This document shows positions 22,544-44,019 of a stretch of 50,660 bases of DNA, one piece after another (position 1 is the stretch's first letter; each line of letters begins with the position of its first letter). Made by a program: the position numbers and the translations under genes. The DNA is from Armatimonadota bacterium (GTDB lineage: Bacteria; Armatimonadota; UBA5829), in contig JAPLCU010000014.1 in assembly GCA_026392045.1 (NCBI GenBank), forward strand, positions 1-50,660, read 5' to 3'. The notes beneath the pieces are model-generated. The model had not been told where the DNA came from. It did no database searches and was given only the letters and a program-made list of their open reading frames with translations.

Positions 22544-22930
22544 TGGAAAGCTGAAAGTGGAAAGTGGAAAGCCCGGAAGGGAGCCGTCGGATAGCCCGAT
22601 GGTATGATAGGACGATAGCCCGGAAGGGAGCGCAAACGTGCTCCCTCTCCTGGGGGAGGTACATCCTGAGCGTGTCGAAGGAGGGATGGGGTGAGGGCGC
22701 AGCGTAACGGCTACGCACAAACCCAGTTACTTCGGTATCCTGATGCCGAAGTCGGCTCCGCAGGAGCCGCAAATGCTTACAGAGAAGCTGAGTTGGAGTT
22801 GTTTCGGGAAACCCTTTTCCCGAAACCAAAACTTATGTGGTAGCTGCGGGAACTGTTGATTGTGCTGGATTGATGGTCTGGTAGATATAGCCGTTCCCGT
22901 AGCATAGAAAGAGCGTGTGGGGGAGAAGAT
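22544..22930. other. Repeat-rich intergenic region
   Basis: This 387-base gap holds GAAAGTGGAAA-type direct repeats (about 22543-22570), two copies of AGCCCGGAAGGGAGC (22570-22584 and about 22618-22631), a CTCCCTCTCCTGGGGGAGG palindrome, the TCGAAGG repeat (22662-22681), GGCTCCGCAGGAGCC (about 22754-22768) and palindrome B (22801-22826). No gene was seen in it. Confidence 0.7.
22801..22826. repeat. Palindromic repeat B, copy 2
   Basis: GTTTCGGGAAA and TTCCCGAAAC arms. The preceding GAGTT and the repeat itself match the copy at 43994-44019. Confidence 0.75.
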
Positions 22931-23623
22931 ATGGATCCATTAGATTACGCACAGGTCTTTGTGGCTTCGCTGAACGACCAAGACATGCTGGCGCGCGTCT
23001 ACGCAGAATGGCTTGTTGAACTTCTAAAGCGTCCGGTCTGGTCCCCGACATCGCCAGAGGGCAGGCGGATTCCGTGGAAGATGATCGCGAAAGCTGTGGA
23101 AACCGGATCAGCCAGCACAGTTGCTGGCTTCAAATGCCATGGACTCTACCTTTGGGGTGCGAACGAGTTGGTTCCGCGGAAAATTGGGAAAACAAAAGAT
23201 ACACTGGATAAAAGGATGAAGAATCGCTACATCCGGAGTCCTCGTCCTCGTTCTGAAATGCTCAAATACCAACCTCAGTGTCTGCTTGCTGCTGATCTAA
23301 TATACAATAACGCGGTTCGCAATAAGATGGCTCATTTTCTTTGCCTTGGGAATGTCGGAGGGTATAGAGAAGAACTGCGTAAGAATGGATTACAGGGATT
23401 TCCAGTGGAACTCAGAGACAATTATAATAAAGAAGAAGCCCGCAAAGGACCTCGTCTCCTTGGGGCGGCGGATTGGATTGTTCATGGGATTGAAGGAATG
23501 TGGGTTGCTATCCTACCGATGCCAGGCCTTGAGCATCACATTGAGAAATTGGAGCATTCGCTACAGTCTATTGCCGACGAGTGGAACATGGCTCGTAATT
23601 ACTATGAGCTTGTTAACGATTAA
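22931..23623 (+). CDS. Uncharacterised protein with GIY-YIG-like N-terminal motif
   Basis: The 230-residue protein is not firmly recognised. Around residues 70-95 it reads GLYLWGANELVPRKIGKT and then TLDKRMKNRY. This resembles the GIY...YIG..T...R core of GIY-YIG nucleases with GLY and KIGKT variants. Near the end IEKLEHSLQ followed by EWN could supply the conserved Glu and Asn. Nuclease function is a tentative inference. GGGGGAG before the ATG supports translation. It sits between araB and araD, is unrelated to sugar metabolism, and is bracketed by palindromic repeats (22801-22826 and 23672-23694), which suggests a later insertion. Confidence 0.7.
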   Translation: MDPLDYAQVFVASLNDQDMLARVYAEWLVELLKRPVWSPTSPEGRRIPWKMIAKAVETGSASTVAGFKCHGLYLWGANELVPRKIGKTKDTLDKRMKNRYIRSPRPRSEMLKYQPQCLLAADLIYNNAVRNKMAHFLCLGNVGGYREELRKNGLQGFPVELRDNYNKEEARKGPRLLGAADWIVHGIEGMWVAILPMPGLEHHIEKLEHSLQSIADEWNMARNYYELVND

Positions 23624-23671: not shown

Positions 23672-23694
23672 TTTCGGGAAACTTGTTCCCGAAA
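23672..23694. repeat. Palindromic repeat B, copy 3
   Basis: TTTCGGGAA and TTCCCGAAA arms. A smaller CGGGAA/TTTCCCG hairpin of the same kind follows at 23708-23724. Confidence 0.65.
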
Positions 23695-23737: not shown

Positions 23738-23782
23738 TTTCGGGATTTGAATGGAGCCGAAGGCGGAATGGAAATCCCGAAA
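23738..23782. repeat. Short derivative of element A (45 bp)
   Basis: TTTCGGGATTT (23738-23748) and AAATCCCGAAA (23772-23782) are the same outer termini as the 76-bp element, but the inner part is shorter and different. Confidence 0.6.
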
Positions 23783-27298: not shown

Positions 27299-28369
27299 AT
27301 GGAGAACAATGTAATACAAGCGCCGCCGCAGAAAAGCACATCGTCATTGCCGACAAGAATGAAAACAGGCGGCGGCTTTCCTATCAACGGCAGAACTATT
27401 GGCCTGATTATATCTGCTGTTGTATTAGGCGGAGTGCTTGCTCATAAATCCGATACATTCCTGCTGCCTTATACTATGTCGGTTATCTCTAAGCAGATTG
27501 CTTTTTTCGCTTTGCTTGCGCTTGCTCAAGCTGTATGTTTGGTAGTTGGCGGAATGAACCTTTCAGTCGGTGCAATTTGTAGCATAACGACCGTTACTCT
27601 CGGTGTTTGTATGGCAAATGCTAATATGAGTGGATGGGAGGCAGTGCCAATAACATTGACGGCAGGTTGCCTTATTGGTTGGCTCAATGGTATGCTCATT
27701 ACTAAACTCAAAATTGATTCGTTTATTATAACACTCTCAATGATGTTCGTATATATGGGGATGCGCTCAGGAATATCGGGCGGCATACCTTATGCTTTGC
27801 CGGAGTCATTTACGTTTATCGGGCAGGAACATGTGCTTGGCGTGCCGTATGTTTTTATATTAGTTGTTATTATCCTGGTAATGGTTGCCTATGTTTTCAA
27901 CAGCACAGTGTTTGGCAGGCGGTTACTTGCTACTGGCGGTAACGAAGATGCGGCGAAGCTTTCGGGTGTAAATACTGATCAGATGATTGTCTGGGCAAAC
28001 ATCCTATCCGGCCTGTTTGCAGCGCTTGCTGCTGTGCTTTGGGCCTCAAAGATGGGGTCTGCCGCGCCAGAGACGGGTGATAACTGGGTGATCGTGACCT
28101 TTGCTGTTGCTATTATTGGAGGGACCGGCTTAAGCGGCGGGGTGATTTCGGCGCCAGGAATATTTATGGGCGGAGTGATTTTTGCGCTTATTAAATATGG
28201 ACTTGTTGAGATGAGGATAAATGACTACTGGGCAAACTGCGTGCTTGGAGGACTCGTTCTCCTTGCAATTATTGTCGACCGAATCCGCGAGACATACGAT
28301 GCAAAAATGAAGTCGGCAGCGGGGCGCCGTAATGAGCGAGATTTAGCCAAGGACAAGAGCGCGGCGTAG
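27299..28369 (+). CDS. Sugar ABC transporter permease (RbsC/XylH type)
   Basis: The 356-residue protein has 8-10 hydrophobic segments and RbsC-family motifs: VVGGMNLSVGAI, GWLNGMLITKLKIDSFIITL, GRRLLATGGNEDAAKLSGV and IIGGTGLSGGVIS. It presumably forms a homodimeric channel with the double ATPase. The first 30 residues are polar and low in complexity. It starts 32 bases after the ATPase gene. Confidence 0.94.
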   Translation: MENNVIQAPPQKSTSSLPTRMKTGGGFPINGRTIGLIISAVVLGGVLAHKSDTFLLPYTMSVISKQIAFFALLALAQAVCLVVGGMNLSVGAICSITTVTLGVCMANANMSGWEAVPITLTAGCLIGWLNGMLITKLKIDSFIITLSMMFVYMGMRSGISGGIPYALPESFTFIGQEHVLGVPYVFILVVIILVMVAYVFNSTVFGRRLLATGGNEDAAKLSGVNTDQMIVWANILSGLFAALAAVLWASKMGSAAPETGDNWVIVTFAVAIIGGTGLSGGVISAPGIFMGGVIFALIKYGLVEMRINDYWANCVLGGLVLLAIIVDRIRETYDAKMKSAAGRRNERDLAKDKSAA

Positions 28370-28438
28370 TGATTGAAGCACTGAACGGTCCCGACTCTGA
28401 TCGATCAATGATTCATCCCAGACTAGGGGTTGGCGAAC

Positions 28439-29419
28439 ATGGCGAGTAAATCAAAAGTGATGGATCCTTGGGTGAGTAGTCCTGATCTTATTCGGGCATT
28501 CACCGAAATGAGACCGCGTTATGAGAAGCTGTGCAGCGAAGTGCAGTATATTTTAGAGAAGCGAATTAAGGAGGCCGGAATTCAGATATCGTCAGTGACC
28601 TGCCGCGCGAAGACGTTGGTGAGCTTCTTGGGGAAAGTTGATCGCAAACCGTATGTTGATCCACTTGAGGAGATAACCGACTTCGCGGGCGCAAGAGTTG
28701 TTTGCCTTTATCTGGATGATATACCAGCGATTGAGGAAATCATTCAGACTGAGTTTGATTTGGTTGATCGATTGGATAAACTTGCCGAGAAGAAACCAAA
28801 TGAGTTTGGCTATGGTGCACTTCACTTCATTGTTCGTTTAGGTAAGAAGTCGTCCGGTGCGCGTTATGATGATCTCAAGGACTTTATATGCGAGATTCAG
28901 GTCAGAACCGTTCTGCAGGACGCTTGGGCAATAATCGATCACCATCTTGCCTACAAGAATGAATCTGCGATTCCTTCGACGATTCAAAGGCAGCTCAATG
29001 GTCTTGCAGGGGCACTGGAGACGGCAGATCATCAATTTCGGAATATCCATCTGGAGCACAGAAATTATGTAGACAAAGTGCATAGGTCTACGGAGCATCG
29101 GGGTCAACTCTTGGCTACAGAATTGAACTTGGATAGTTTTCGTGAATATTTGAAATGGCGCTTTCGTGACAGGCCTACGGAGACCATTAGCGGACAGTTG
29201 TCCTTTTACCTTGAACTCCTGCAATCAGCTGGTTATTCTACCCTTGCTGACTTGGAGGGCAAATTGGATGATGATGTAATCACCCGTGCGGCTCCTATCG
29301 CCTATCAAGCGACTATGGACTCTGCCTGCTCGTTCTTGACGGTTGCCCTTACCTTAGTTGACCAAGGGCTGAAAGAGAGACTGTCTCTATTTCTGCCGCC
29401 ATATGAATGGTGGCCTTGA
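28439..29419 (+). CDS. RelA/SpoT-type nucleotide pyrophosphotransferase (small alarmone synthetase-like)
   Basis: The 326-residue protein has only the synthetase domain of RelA/SpoT, without the hydrolase, TGS or ACT parts. Conserved positions are R56/K58/S62/K66, D81 in EITDFAGARVV, Y125 and H129 in GYGALHF, and E152/R156/T157 in EIQVRTVLQDAW, then DHHLAYK. The catalytic Asp and Glu are therefore present. The last 100 or so residues are helical and unassigned. Relatives make (p)ppGpp, or, as toxSAS/CapRel toxins, pyrophosphorylate tRNA; sequence alone cannot separate these. ATG at 28439 has AGGGG nine bases before it (TTG at 28430 is the alternative). It sits inside the sugar cluster with no adjacent antitoxin-like gene. 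Confidence 0.88.
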   Translation: MASKSKVMDPWVSSPDLIRAFTEMRPRYEKLCSEVQYILEKRIKEAGIQISSVTCRAKTLVSFLGKVDRKPYVDPLEEITDFAGARVVCLYLDDIPAIEEIIQTEFDLVDRLDKLAEKKPNEFGYGALHFIVRLGKKSSGARYDDLKDFICEIQVRTVLQDAWAIIDHHLAYKNESAIPSTIQRQLNGLAGALETADHQFRNIHLEHRNYVDKVHRSTEHRGQLLATELNLDSFREYLKWRFRDRPTETISGQLSFYLELLQSAGYSTLADLEGKLDDDVITRAAPIAYQATMDSACSFLTVALTLVDQGLKERLSLFLPPYEWWP

Positions 29420-29636: not shown

Positions 29637-31130
29637 ATGGATTTACCGAATGCACCTAAAGTAAAGTTGGCGATTGTCGGTGTCAGCAGGGACTGCTTTC
29701 CCATAGAACTGACTCGTACCAGACTTGGTAAGTTGAGCGATGCCTGTAAAGCCGCTGGTGTAGATGTCTACACATGCAAGACTATTATCGAGAGCGAGAA
29801 TGACGTAATGGCCGCTCTTGCGGAGGTTGGTGATGTCGGCGCCAATGCAGCAGTTATCTACCTTGGTAACTTCGGCCCTGAGGGTCCTGCGACGATCTTT
29901 GCCAGGCGGTTCGGCAGGCCAGTGATGTTCTGCGCTGCTGCTGAGGAGAGCAGGAGCACCCTTATGGGCGGACGCGGAGACGCTTATTGCGGAATGCTTA
30001 ACGCGTCCTACAACATTGCGTTGCGCAACCTTATCGCATACATCCCACAAATGCCCGTAGGGCTGCCAGATGAGCTTGCGAAGAAGATCAAACATTTTGA
30101 GACTGTCGCACGTATCGTTCTGGGCGTAATGGATGTCAAGATTGTCTCGTATGGCCCCAGACCCCAGGACTTCTTCGCCTGCAACGCACCCATAAAGCCA
30201 CTCTACAACCTGGGCGTCGAAGTGATGGAGAACAGTGAACTAGAACTTTTGGATATTTACAACGCCATTGCTGAAAATGACCCAGAAATTGCGCCGATAG
30301 TCAAAGACATGACTGCCGAGCTGGGCAAGGGCAACACGTATCCGGACCTACTGCCTAAGCTGGCCCGCTTTGAGCTTACATTGACCCGCGCTTTTAAGGC
30401 AAACCTTGGCTCACGTCAGTATGGCATCTTTGCCAACAAGTGCTGGCCAGCATTCGAGGGCGATTTCGGATTTGTTCCTTGTTATGTGAACTCCCGCCTT
30501 GCTTCTCGCGGCATTCCGGTGGCTTGCGAAGTTGACATTTACGGCGCGCTCAGCGAGTATATGTGCTACCTGGCGACGGGCATTGCCCCGACCCTCTTGG
30601 ACATCAACAACACAGTTCCTGTTGATATGCTTGCTGGTGCAGACCTCAAGGGAGCATCTCCTGTTGACCTTTTCATGGGATTCCATTGCGGAAACACCCC
30701 AAGCTGCTGCATGAAGAACTGCGCGATGAACTATCAGGTCATTATGAACCGACTGATGGAGGACCCGACCAAGGAACCGGATATTACCCGCGGTACTCTC
30801 GAAGGTCAGCTAAAGCCGGGCCCGACCACATTCTTCAGACTGCAGGGCAATGCTGAAGGCGAACTGGTCAGCTACATCGCAGATGGCAATATTTTGGACA
30901 TCGATCCGATGACATTTGGCGGCATCGGCATATTCGCTATACCGGGCTTCGCCAGGTTCTATCGTCACGTATTGATTGGAAAACAATTCCCGCACCACGG
31001 CGCCGTCGCGTTCAAGACCTGTGGCAAGGCTCTATATGACGCCGCTGCTCTGTTGGGCGTTGAAGACATCAACGTTCCGCTGCCAAACACAACGCTCTAT
31101 TCGGGTGAAAACCCGTTCGAACTGACTTAG
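29637..31130 (+). CDS. L-fucose/L-arabinose isomerase family protein
   Basis: The 497-residue protein resembles the FucI/AraA-like aldose-ketose isomerases. Likely manganese ligands lie in the C-terminal half: Glu in CEVDIYGALSEYM, Asp in LDINNT and His in GFHCGNTPSC. The N-terminal half has two Rossmann-like domains (KVKLAIVGVSRDCFP, then AAVIYLGNFGPEGP and GRGDAYCGMLN). With ribulokinase and AraD nearby, it is the candidate for making L-ribulose from L-arabinose. ATG at 29637 has AGGAG eight bases upstream; the longer frame from 29559 has no ribosome-binding site. Confidence 0.88.
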   Translation: MDLPNAPKVKLAIVGVSRDCFPIELTRTRLGKLSDACKAAGVDVYTCKTIIESENDVMAALAEVGDVGANAAVIYLGNFGPEGPATIFARRFGRPVMFCAAAEESRSTLMGGRGDAYCGMLNASYNIALRNLIAYIPQMPVGLPDELAKKIKHFETVARIVLGVMDVKIVSYGPRPQDFFACNAPIKPLYNLGVEVMENSELELLDIYNAIAENDPEIAPIVKDMTAELGKGNTYPDLLPKLARFELTLTRAFKANLGSRQYGIFANKCWPAFEGDFGFVPCYVNSRLASRGIPVACEVDIYGALSEYMCYLATGIAPTLLDINNTVPVDMLAGADLKGASPVDLFMGFHCGNTPSCCMKNCAMNYQVIMNRLMEDPTKEPDITRGTLEGQLKPGPTTFFRLQGNAEGELVSYIADGNILDIDPMTFGGIGIFAIPGFARFYRHVLIGKQFPHHGAVAFKTCGKALYDAAALLGVEDINVPLPNTTLYSGENPFELT

Positions 31131-32934: not shown

Positions 32935-35223
32935 TCAGCTCGTCTGCCTGAAGATTTTTCGCCTGATGGTATTCCAGACAAAATCTGCCTCTTCCACTCT
33001 TAATAACCTTAGCATCGCGAAATATACTATGCCGCCCAATAGCATCGCGAGAAATACTGTAACGGTTGAGGCTTTGAAGCTTTCGACTCTGTCTATAGGC
33101 CTTTTCATGATTTCGGCTGGGTAGGCGGCCTCCATAAGTAGCCGGTTCACGTGGGCAAGTTGCTTTCCGCTCGGGTTGCTTTTTGCGAGCTTAATCGTGT
33201 TCTCAGATGGCTTAATATTAGCAAATCGGGTGGGGGAGTATATCTGCTTTGTGTCTATCAATATGTTCATATCGTGCATAAGCGTGTTTGGCATAGTTTG
33301 CGGAGCAAGGAGCTCGCGTGTTCTCGGTGATAGACGACCCATTATGTAACTGGACAACTTGCTGTAATTTGCAAGCTGCATCGCCATAATTCGAGGCTCT
33401 TCAATATCGTTTGCTTGCATCAGGGACTTGCCTTCATCGCCTTCGGTTATCTGCGATGGATATGCGCAAGCAAGAAGCAGCCGATTCAGGCGCATCAGGT
33501 TAGCGCCCGTCTGATGTCCTTTAAGGAGCGTTTGGACCTCTTCGCTTAGCCTTTTTTGTGCAAACAGCTCTGAATTATATATACTTGGACCTTGGATGAT
33601 TTTGTTGAAATCGGCTGATAGCGATTGCTTCACAGCGTCTTCGTCCCAACCGGCATGCTGGTAATCATTGATTATTCGTCGGGTGTCAGGCAGCAAATTT
33701 GAATAGATATAAACAGATACAGGATCGCTGCCGTTTTTCAGTTTTTTTGCAAGTGTGCCTGCCTGTTTGAAATCGCCGTCTTGTAGTTGCCATGAACCTA
33801 TGGTCTTAGACATCTCCAATCTCACGCCATAGCAAACAGCCGCCATCGCTACTGCCGCAATTAGTATCCTTCCGGCAGTTTTTAGAGTTCTTGTGCCCTC
33901 TAATCCATTAAGCCGCTTTCTTAGAAACCAGGTGAGCATGAGGAAATGAATTGTTGCTGCGATGGTTGTCGAAAGAGCAATGCCGCCAATTCCCATATAC
34001 TTCATAAGAAAGTAGTTCGTGGGGATAAATATTGCAGTCGAAACCGTGCCTATTAATACAGGGGTAATGGTGTCCTGCAAGGCAAAGAACCCCCGGGCAA
34101 CTATAGCCTGCCCAGCCCATGCGAAGATGCCGGCTGAATAGAATATCAGCGCTATTGCGGTCAAAGGAACATCGCTGGGCTTGAACTCGCCTCTCATATA
34201 TGCAACGCGAACAATCGGGTCAGCCATCACCACCATAAACAACGTGCATGGAATGTTTTCTACCAGAATTGTCCGCAATCCATACGCAATGCCGCTTCGC
34301 ATCTCATCGAATTTGTTTAGCGCGGCATAAGCAGCAAGCATCGGCAAAATTGCGGTTCCAGCCGCTTGCGCGAATATCCCCAGCGGCAACTGCATAAGCC
34401 TGTTTGCATAGTTGAGCGCAGCAGGAGCTGAATCTGATACAAAACTGGCAAAGTATTTGTTGATAATGATATCAATCTGCGGCAGGCTCAAGCCCAATAT
34501 AACGGGTAAGGCGAGTTGCCCCACTCGAACGACGCCTGGATGTCGGAAATTGAGGCTGGGGTAGAATTCATAACCCTCTTTTCTGAGGCAGTAATAGGCA
34601 TAGACTACATTGCCGGCGAATGCGCCAATCAATGCGCCCCATGCAAGACCTGCAATGTGGAACCATCGGATCAACACTAACGCGCCGAAGATGATTCCAG
34701 CGTTGTATATGACTGGTCCTGCAGCCCTGGCGCTGAATTTCTGCCTGGATTCCAGCGTGCCCATCATAAGCCCGCCAATGAAGAAGAACAATTGGCATGG
34801 GAGGATGATTTTGGTGAGAATGACGGTTGTATCGACAAGATTCGGGTATTTATCCACGAACCCCGGCACAGCAAGCACGCTGACCAACGGCCTTGCGTAA
34901 ACCCAGAAGATTACCACGGCAGCCGTCAGCGCCAAACCCATCAGGCAAGCGATTATGCTAAAAATCTGCCATGCTTCCTTTTGCCTGCCGGTATTGAATC
35001 GCTCGGTGAATACGGGTATAAATGCGCTTGAGAGAGCGCCGCTGGATAGGAAGAAGTAAAGCAGGTCCGGTAGATTGAATGCCGCCGTATATGCGCTGGC
35101 GTCACCGCCTTGCCCGAATTTGGCTGCGATTATAATATCTCTGACAAACCCGAGTATACGGCTCAATAATATCGCCACCAGCATCAAACTGGCGGCTTTT
35201 TTGAAACTCTTATGTGAATTCAT
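32935..35223 (-). CDS. murJ: MurJ-type lipid II flippase with large insertion
   Basis: The 762-residue protein is far longer than usual MurJ (about 510-530). The first 470 residues match the MOP-superfamily lipid II flippase: SRILGFVRDIIIAAKFG, SGALSSAFIPVF, LPLGIFAQAAGTAILP and a chain of hydrophobic helices. About 245 soluble residues (472-717) are then inserted before a final membrane helix (718-740) and a basic tail. The insertion contains a motif twice: NRLLLACAYPSQI (about 580-592) and NRLLMEAAYPAEI (about 693-705). No Shine-Dalgarno site is seen, and the promoter suggests a leaderless messenger. The next gene is divergent. Confidence 0.92.
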   Translation of the reverse strand: MNSHKSFKKAASLMLVAILLSRILGFVRDIIIAAKFGQGGDASAYTAAFNLPDLLYFFLSSGALSSAFIPVFTERFNTGRQKEAWQIFSIIACLMGLALTAAVVIFWVYARPLVSVLAVPGFVDKYPNLVDTTVILTKIILPCQLFFFIGGLMMGTLESRQKFSARAAGPVIYNAGIIFGALVLIRWFHIAGLAWGALIGAFAGNVVYAYYCLRKEGYEFYPSLNFRHPGVVRVGQLALPVILGLSLPQIDIIINKYFASFVSDSAPAALNYANRLMQLPLGIFAQAAGTAILPMLAAYAALNKFDEMRSGIAYGLRTILVENIPCTLFMVVMADPIVRVAYMRGEFKPSDVPLTAIALIFYSAGIFAWAGQAIVARGFFALQDTITPVLIGTVSTAIFIPTNYFLMKYMGIGGIALSTTIAATIHFLMLTWFLRKRLNGLEGTRTLKTAGRILIAAVAMAAVCYGVRLEMSKTIGSWQLQDGDFKQAGTLAKKLKNGSDPVSVYIYSNLLPDTRRIINDYQHAGWDEDAVKQSLSADFNKIIQGPSIYNSELFAQKRLSEEVQTLLKGHQTGANLMRLNRLLLACAYPSQITEGDEGKSLMQANDIEEPRIMAMQLANYSKLSSYIMGRLSPRTRELLAPQTMPNTLMHDMNILIDTKQIYSPTRFANIKPSENTIKLAKSNPSGKQLAHVNRLLMEAAYPAEIMKRPIDRVESFKASTVTVFLAMLLGGIVYFAMLRLLRVEEADFVWNTIRRKIFRQTS

Positions 35224-43993: not shown

Positions 43994-44019
43994 GTTTCGG
44001 GAAACCCCTTTCCCGAAAC
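43994..44019. repeat. Palindromic repeat B, copy 4
   Basis: GTTTCGGGAAA and TTTCCCGAAAC arms, almost identical to 22801-22826. Confidence 0.75.

Follow-up and report, generated by a model that had tools for sequence, protein, structure and literature searches.

A stand-alone RelA/SpoT-type synthetase with a conserved C-terminal helical domain, probably mobile cargo, in an arabinose gene cluster of an Armatimonadota bacterium

Could a RelA/SpoT-type synthetase that lies among sugar genes couple the sugar supply to a nucleotide alarm signal, or is it a self-contained toxin with its own control region? The question is raised by a gene in a 50,660-nucleotide stretch of DNA (the window) from a 3.55-Mb draft genome. 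The gene is surrounded by a pentose cluster that comprises a ribulokinase, an AraD-like aldolase, a sugar ABC transporter, an isomerase and a GH4 enzyme. The initial annotation placed the synthetase between the sugar permease and isomerase genes and saw no antitoxin beside it. Both observations hold: the permease and the isomerase flank the gene (Table 1), the synthetase stands alone, and a tally of neighbours around its homologues finds no recurrent partner. The reading frame could open at a TTG at 28430 (28430–29419), but we prefer the ATG at 28439, which has AGGGG 9 nt upstream. The genome encodes one further RelA/SpoT protein, a single 742-aa bifunctional Rel with an HD domain.

Table 1. 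Positions of the synthetase gene, its parts and its neighbours in the window
Feature	Position	Strand	Basis or remark
Synthetase CDS, 326 aa, ATG start	28439..29419	+	Pfam, family alignment
Likely RBS AGGGG, 9 nt 5' of the ATG	28425..28429	+	Direct sequence reading
Catalytic SYNTH domain and long C-terminal helix, residues 15–219	28481..29095	+	Pfam, AF2 model, alignment
PF04607 core within the SYNTH domain	28604–28963	+	Pfam
Conserved all-helical C-terminal domain, residues 231–318	29129..29392	+	Predicted structure; putative control or sensor role
Neighbouring ABC sugar permease (BPD_transp_2)	27299..28369	+	Context only
Neighbouring Fucose_iso_C-type sugar isomerase with its own RBS	29637..31130	+	Context only

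The catalytic half of the protein is readily recognized. PF04607 (RelA_SpoT) is its sole Pfam match (residues 56–175, 2e-19, 70 bits against a cut-off of 27), and the Pfam scan finds no HD hydrolase, TGS or ACT domain. In S. aureus RelP, ATP is held by R78, R112, K80, K88, R91, S84 and H190, Mg is bound by D107 and E174, and the guanosine substrate is contacted by Y151 (PMC5794853). In our alignment, R78, K80, S84, K88 and R91 of RelP correspond to R56, K58, S62, K66 and R69 of the synthetase, and D107, R112, Y151, E174 and H190 to D81, R86, Y125, E152 and H168, with Y125 as the G-loop tyrosine. The catalytic D81 and E152, which the initial annotation had described as intact, are both where it placed them, and the loss of key catalytic residues that it had named as a point against its own proposal was not seen, as every RelP-mapped residue is present. 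Nine positions (R56, K58, D81, R86, Y125, E152, W163, Y172 and K173) are invariant in the 51 aligned family members, and R69 is the loosest in the active site, with lysine instead in 14 of the 51. With its domain above the curated cut-off, no hydrolase and a complete set of ATP-/Mg-site and G-loop residues, the protein qualifies by sequence as a small alarmone synthetase (SAS). RelQ R117, which is required for pppGpp stimulation (PMC5794853), has G126 as its equivalent here.

An AlphaFold2 model of the full protein (51 sequences) gave a pLDDT of 92.9 and a pTM of 0.86, and its catalytic part matched the RelQ and RelP structures with Z of about 17–19 (176–188 residues, rmsd 2.5–3.0 Å), compared with 10–15 for Rel, 13.8 for CapRel, 11.3 for Tas1 and about 7 for FaRel2. 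RelQ/RelP are the best match of the catalytic domain by both sequence and fold. Very probably, the synthetase moves a pyrophosphate group of ATP onto an acceptor. Because its site matches those of the (p)ppGpp synthetases, GTP or GDP would be the most likely acceptor, and adenosine nucleotides or tRNA are possible too; as this core acts on GTP, ATP or tRNA depending on the family, the residues alone do not fix the choice.

What does the remainder of the protein contain? The initial annotation left the last 100 or so residues unassigned and suggested that they might form a control region. There is indeed a C-terminal region of its own, and structure prediction now assigns to it a conserved helical domain: in the model, a long helix at residues 180–219 is followed by a six-helix bundle at residues 231–318. 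The C-terminal region modelled alone retained high confidence values (pLDDT 91.9, pTM 0.83). Many of the 51 sequences carry a motif of approximately [IL]-N-x-D-S-[LF]-x-x-[YF]-L ... L-x3-G-[YFI]-x-T-L-x-x-L, and this domain by itself matches the Syntrophales homologue at E 3e-22. A Pfam search with the domain returned no significant match. In PDB searches with Foldseek and VIA-align, no hit rose above chance (best E 1.6, best Z 2.8), a result that falls short of proving a new fold. As far as our searches show, the C-terminal domain is conserved, widespread and uncharacterised in the open literature and databases searched.

To which family does the synthetase belong? Its nearest relatives occur in Desulfobacterota and Gammaproteobacteria (48–54% identity over the whole alignment). 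A Syntrophales protein is 55% identical across residues 4–311 and an Alcanivorax jadensis homologue 56%; because 55% identity over 308 residues to a protein of another phylum rules out a chance reading frame, the gene is genuine. Further relatives are found in two delta-proteobacterial MAGs (47–48%), in a genome of the same phylum (G142, 45–46%) and on a viral contig (44%). Collections of genomes and viruses yielded no matches in single-sequence scans, and alignment-based scans succeeded. The maximum-likelihood tree covers the catalytic domain of 49 family rows, long Rel references and, of the published SAS subgroups (others are FaRel2, PhRel, FpRel and actRel; a list of SAS subgroups is given in PMC3153485), RelQ/RelP and CapRel. 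The 49 family rows form a separate group, and the phylogeny that had been proposed at the outset, as run against RelQ, RelP and CapRel, places the synthetase outside all of their clades: RelQ/RelP (99/92), CapRel (100/99) and long Rel (100/100) each exclude it. Its own 16-row clade (100/98) includes members from Thermodesulfobacteriota, Pseudomonadota, Actinomycetota, Nitrospirota, Omnitrophota, a Bathyarchaeota MAG, phages and plasmids.

Against the NCBIfam RelQ equivalog the synthetase scored 76 bits, far below the cut-off of 320. The best phage-family match was PHROG 9640 (1.2e-46, residues 16–237), a family of unknown function that the close relatives L068 and L148 match too; the match stops at residue 237, so that the far C-terminus is uncovered. 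The match to PADLOC PDC-S33 (57 bits) is confined to a portion of the catalytic domain, and a literature search for that name found no paper. Likewise, our search of the open literature found no experimental work on the synthetase family.

The distribution of the family is patchy. Twelve of the 291 phylum genomes have a match at E<=1e-20, and in six of them it covers most of the profile. One of those six (G168) was discounted in the tally because its contig is 100% identical over 9,597 bases to a contig of a Nitrosomonas MAG; one of the two, G168 (L063, G168:C34) or the Nitrosomonas MAG (L102), is probably misbinned or carries contamination. Within the window's own family, the full-length synthetase is present in no further genome. 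In one genome of that family (G010; L004, G010:C103), the catalytic domain is part of a protein of 1,047 aa whose tail resembles TPR, and a Limnohabitans plasmid (L028) encodes a 483-aa synthetase with a similar tail. These tails represent alternative C-terminal modules for the shared catalytic domain.

Furthermore, homologues are carried as lone cargo on diverse mobile elements. A filamentous Vibrio phage has one as an extra gene, a Mycobacterium abscessus prophage has one beside the holin gene and antisense to the holin and structural genes, and a Bacteroides phage-plasmid has one between the terminase and HNH genes. Plasmid-borne examples include a 3.5-kb Klebsiella ColRNAI plasmid, a Streptomyces plasmid and a small Paracoccus plasmid that also encodes a type ISP restriction enzyme. 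IMG/VR contributed 63 contigs with homologues, and at L148 the gene lies on the strand opposite the terminase. The gene is antisense to both neighbours at 13 of 50 viral loci and at 7 of 54 genome loci, a difference in orientation that is suggestive at most. The E. coli genomes searched gave no DNA match to the homologue of the Klebsiella plasmid. Around the synthetase gene of the window, a search for flanking repeats found two short direct pairs, both inside genes, and no inverted repeats.

Does the gene travel with a partner? Among 101 flanking proteins from about 40 homologous loci, no Pfam family occurred more than twice, which indicates that there is no conserved partner gene, and no partner antitoxin emerged from the same tally. 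Some close relatives do lie near defence genes: an Argonaute-system gene adjoins one (L074), a SAVED/HNH-type nuclease adjoins another (L073), and a type II methyltransferase lies 1.8 kb from a third (L071). Such neighbours, which are present at some loci only, are no more than suggestive of a role in defence. At L067 (6319–7275), a distant synthetase lies directly 3' of a 351-aa gene that by eye resembles the NdpA nucleoid-associated type, with a large helicase-like gene next, and on an Ochrobactrum plasmid the synthetase match overlaps a gene annotated as a nucleoid-associated protein. The arrangement of the L067 type is possibly a two-gene variant.

The pentose genes are arranged differently in relatives. 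In G013, from the window's family, araB, araD and the isomerase gene lie next to one another, 72–83% identical to those of the window and accompanied by neither the transporter nor the synthetase. Other relatives have the isomerase in yet different settings, never with the synthetase. The cluster in the window also contains a 230-aa reading frame (22931–23623) between araB and araD, a single copy in the genome, with no match in Pfam, NCBIfam, PHROG or PADLOC and, by eye, a GIY-YIG-like stretch (GLYLWG...RKIGKT). Since araB and araD are contiguous in G013, this reading frame is probably a second insertion in the cluster. Palindromic repeats (TTTCGGGA...TCCCGAAA) occur at 22802–22825, 23672–23694, 23738–23782 and 43995–44018, where none is expected by chance, and three of the four flank the 230-aa reading frame. 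They look like a dispersed repeat that is possibly mobile. Elsewhere in the window (32935–35223, minus strand), the C-terminal half of a MurJ-like protein includes a long additional stretch; at 762 aa, this protein far exceeds the usual MurJ length of about 500.

Is the synthetase then a part of the pentose operon that signals pentose supply or starvation? It lies between the permease and the isomerase on their strand, and no terminator was seen after the permease, so that read-through and co-transcription with the transporter are possible. Its GC content (46.9%) matches that of the adjacent transporter genes (46.5–47.3%), and therefore the gene is not marked as foreign by composition. On the other hand, the initially proposed tie between sugar supply and an alarm signal is not supported, and the linkage is specific to this lineage: the pentose genes of the relatives described above do without the synthetase, and when 156 synthetase loci (1.9 Mb) were searched by tblastn with the cluster proteins, no relative of araB, araD, the isomerase, the binding protein or the GH4 enzyme turned up at any of them. 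At a single locus, a sugar-type ABC transporter lies 6–8 kb away. Orthologues found away from sugar operons had been named in advance as the observation that would count against the sugar idea, and this is what the 156 loci show. We reject sugar coupling on the synteny in relatives and this search, and consider such a regulator very unlikely; the synthetase seems to have landed in the arabinose cluster by chance. A toxSAS of the fused CapRel family, which would pyrophosphorylate tRNA and be restrained by a C-terminal antitoxin domain, is extremely unlikely. In CapRel, the C-terminal domain inhibits the enzyme and senses the phage capsid (PMC9712102). CapRel SJ46 and the synthetase share their layout (one gene, an N-terminal synthetase followed by a C-terminal domain in one chain, prophage carriage), the A1 profile finds CapRel at 4.5e-8, and the structural Z is 13.8. 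However, the synthetase lies outside the CapRel clade, its catalytic domain is nearer to RelQ/RelP, and CapRel SJ46 is without the ribose-binding histidine and the tyrosine of the H-x3-Y-K motif. The C-terminal antitoxin domain of CapRel is a pseudo-zinc-finger with a YXXY motif, whereas that of the synthetase is all-helical and without YXXY, and a profile comparison of the two domains found no similarity (probability 0.2%). The phylum also has genuine fused CapRels as separate proteins (L007, L008 and L009, in genomes of the family, order and class of the window, G009, G017 and G023, respectively), and all three, as well as the phage SJ46 CapRel, carry YPNY. The tree, the missing YXXY and the profile comparison lead us to reject membership in CapRel. 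Of the CapRel-like toxin suggested initially, the layout stands and the domains do not; the parallel is an analogy because the C-terminal domain differs, and by its layout a self-contained toxin is plausible.

A more serious competitor, possible yet doubtful in our view, is that the gene encodes an ordinary (p)ppGpp synthetase, also acquired horizontally, that raises the basal alarmone level in stress as RelQ or C. glutamicum RelS would, with a C-terminal domain for assembly or tuning rather than infection sensing. RelQ (YjbM/SAS1) and RelP (YwaC/SAS2) are nearest to the synthetase in sequence and fold and share with it the RelP-mapped ATP-site and G-loop residues and the lack of a hydrolase; H168, which binds ribose, and the H-x3-Y-K motif are common to RelQ and not to CapRel SJ46. 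C. glutamicum RelS shows that a stand-alone SAS can make (p)ppGpp: this 38.9-kDa enzyme complements a relA spoT mutant (PMC5566576). Compared by description only, RelS/actRel is of similar size to the synthetase and active, and it is reported to be confined to Actinobacteria. The host's single bifunctional Rel could hydrolyse the product. Against this stand the patchy distribution and the carriage by phages and small plasmids, unlike those of a housekeeping SAS, and the glycine in place of RelQ R117. RelQ and RelP are about 210 aa long, compared with the 326 aa, the extra helical domain and the separate clade of the synthetase, whose family is mobile across phyla, unlike RelQ/RelP.

On balance, we favour with moderate confidence that the gene was acquired by horizontal transfer and encodes a self-contained pyrophosphokinase under the control of its helical domain, a member of a widespread and mobile single-gene family and probably a factor in growth arrest or defence. 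A RelQ/RelP-like 3'-pyrophosphokinase domain would have been fused to the conserved helical domain of about 90 residues, and the gene would have moved alone, as cargo, into the L-arabinose cluster of this Armatimonadota genome. By analogy with CapRel, the enzyme is most likely kept inactive in cis by its helical domain; a signal of stress or infection would release it and growth would stop, and if the product is a (p)ppGpp, the host Rel could remove it. The catalytic residues, the predicted fold, the family and its mobility, and the absence of a sugar link and of a conserved partner come from the analyses above; we infer the acceptor, the inhibition in cis, the trigger and the role in defence. 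For the family, a function in stress or phage defence is more likely than sugar sensing, and carriage by phages can also reflect a gain in lysogeny fitness or in stress tolerance instead of defence. More tentatively still, the family may be an undescribed one-gene anti-phage class, in which a RelQ-like pyrophosphokinase with a new helical infection sensor would arrest growth through alarmones or tRNA, and which phages and plasmids would have carried between bacterial phyla and possibly into archaea.

What do these results mean for the biology of such enzymes? Dropping the idea of a sugar sensor removes a misleading lead, and what remains is an SAS architecture, widespread and mobile, whose conserved C-terminal domain has, as far as our searches show, neither a Pfam model nor a PDB match. 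If the helical domain is a cis-acting switch, RelQ-like enzymes, and not just the toxSAS branch, would have been recruited as self-contained factors for defence or growth arrest.
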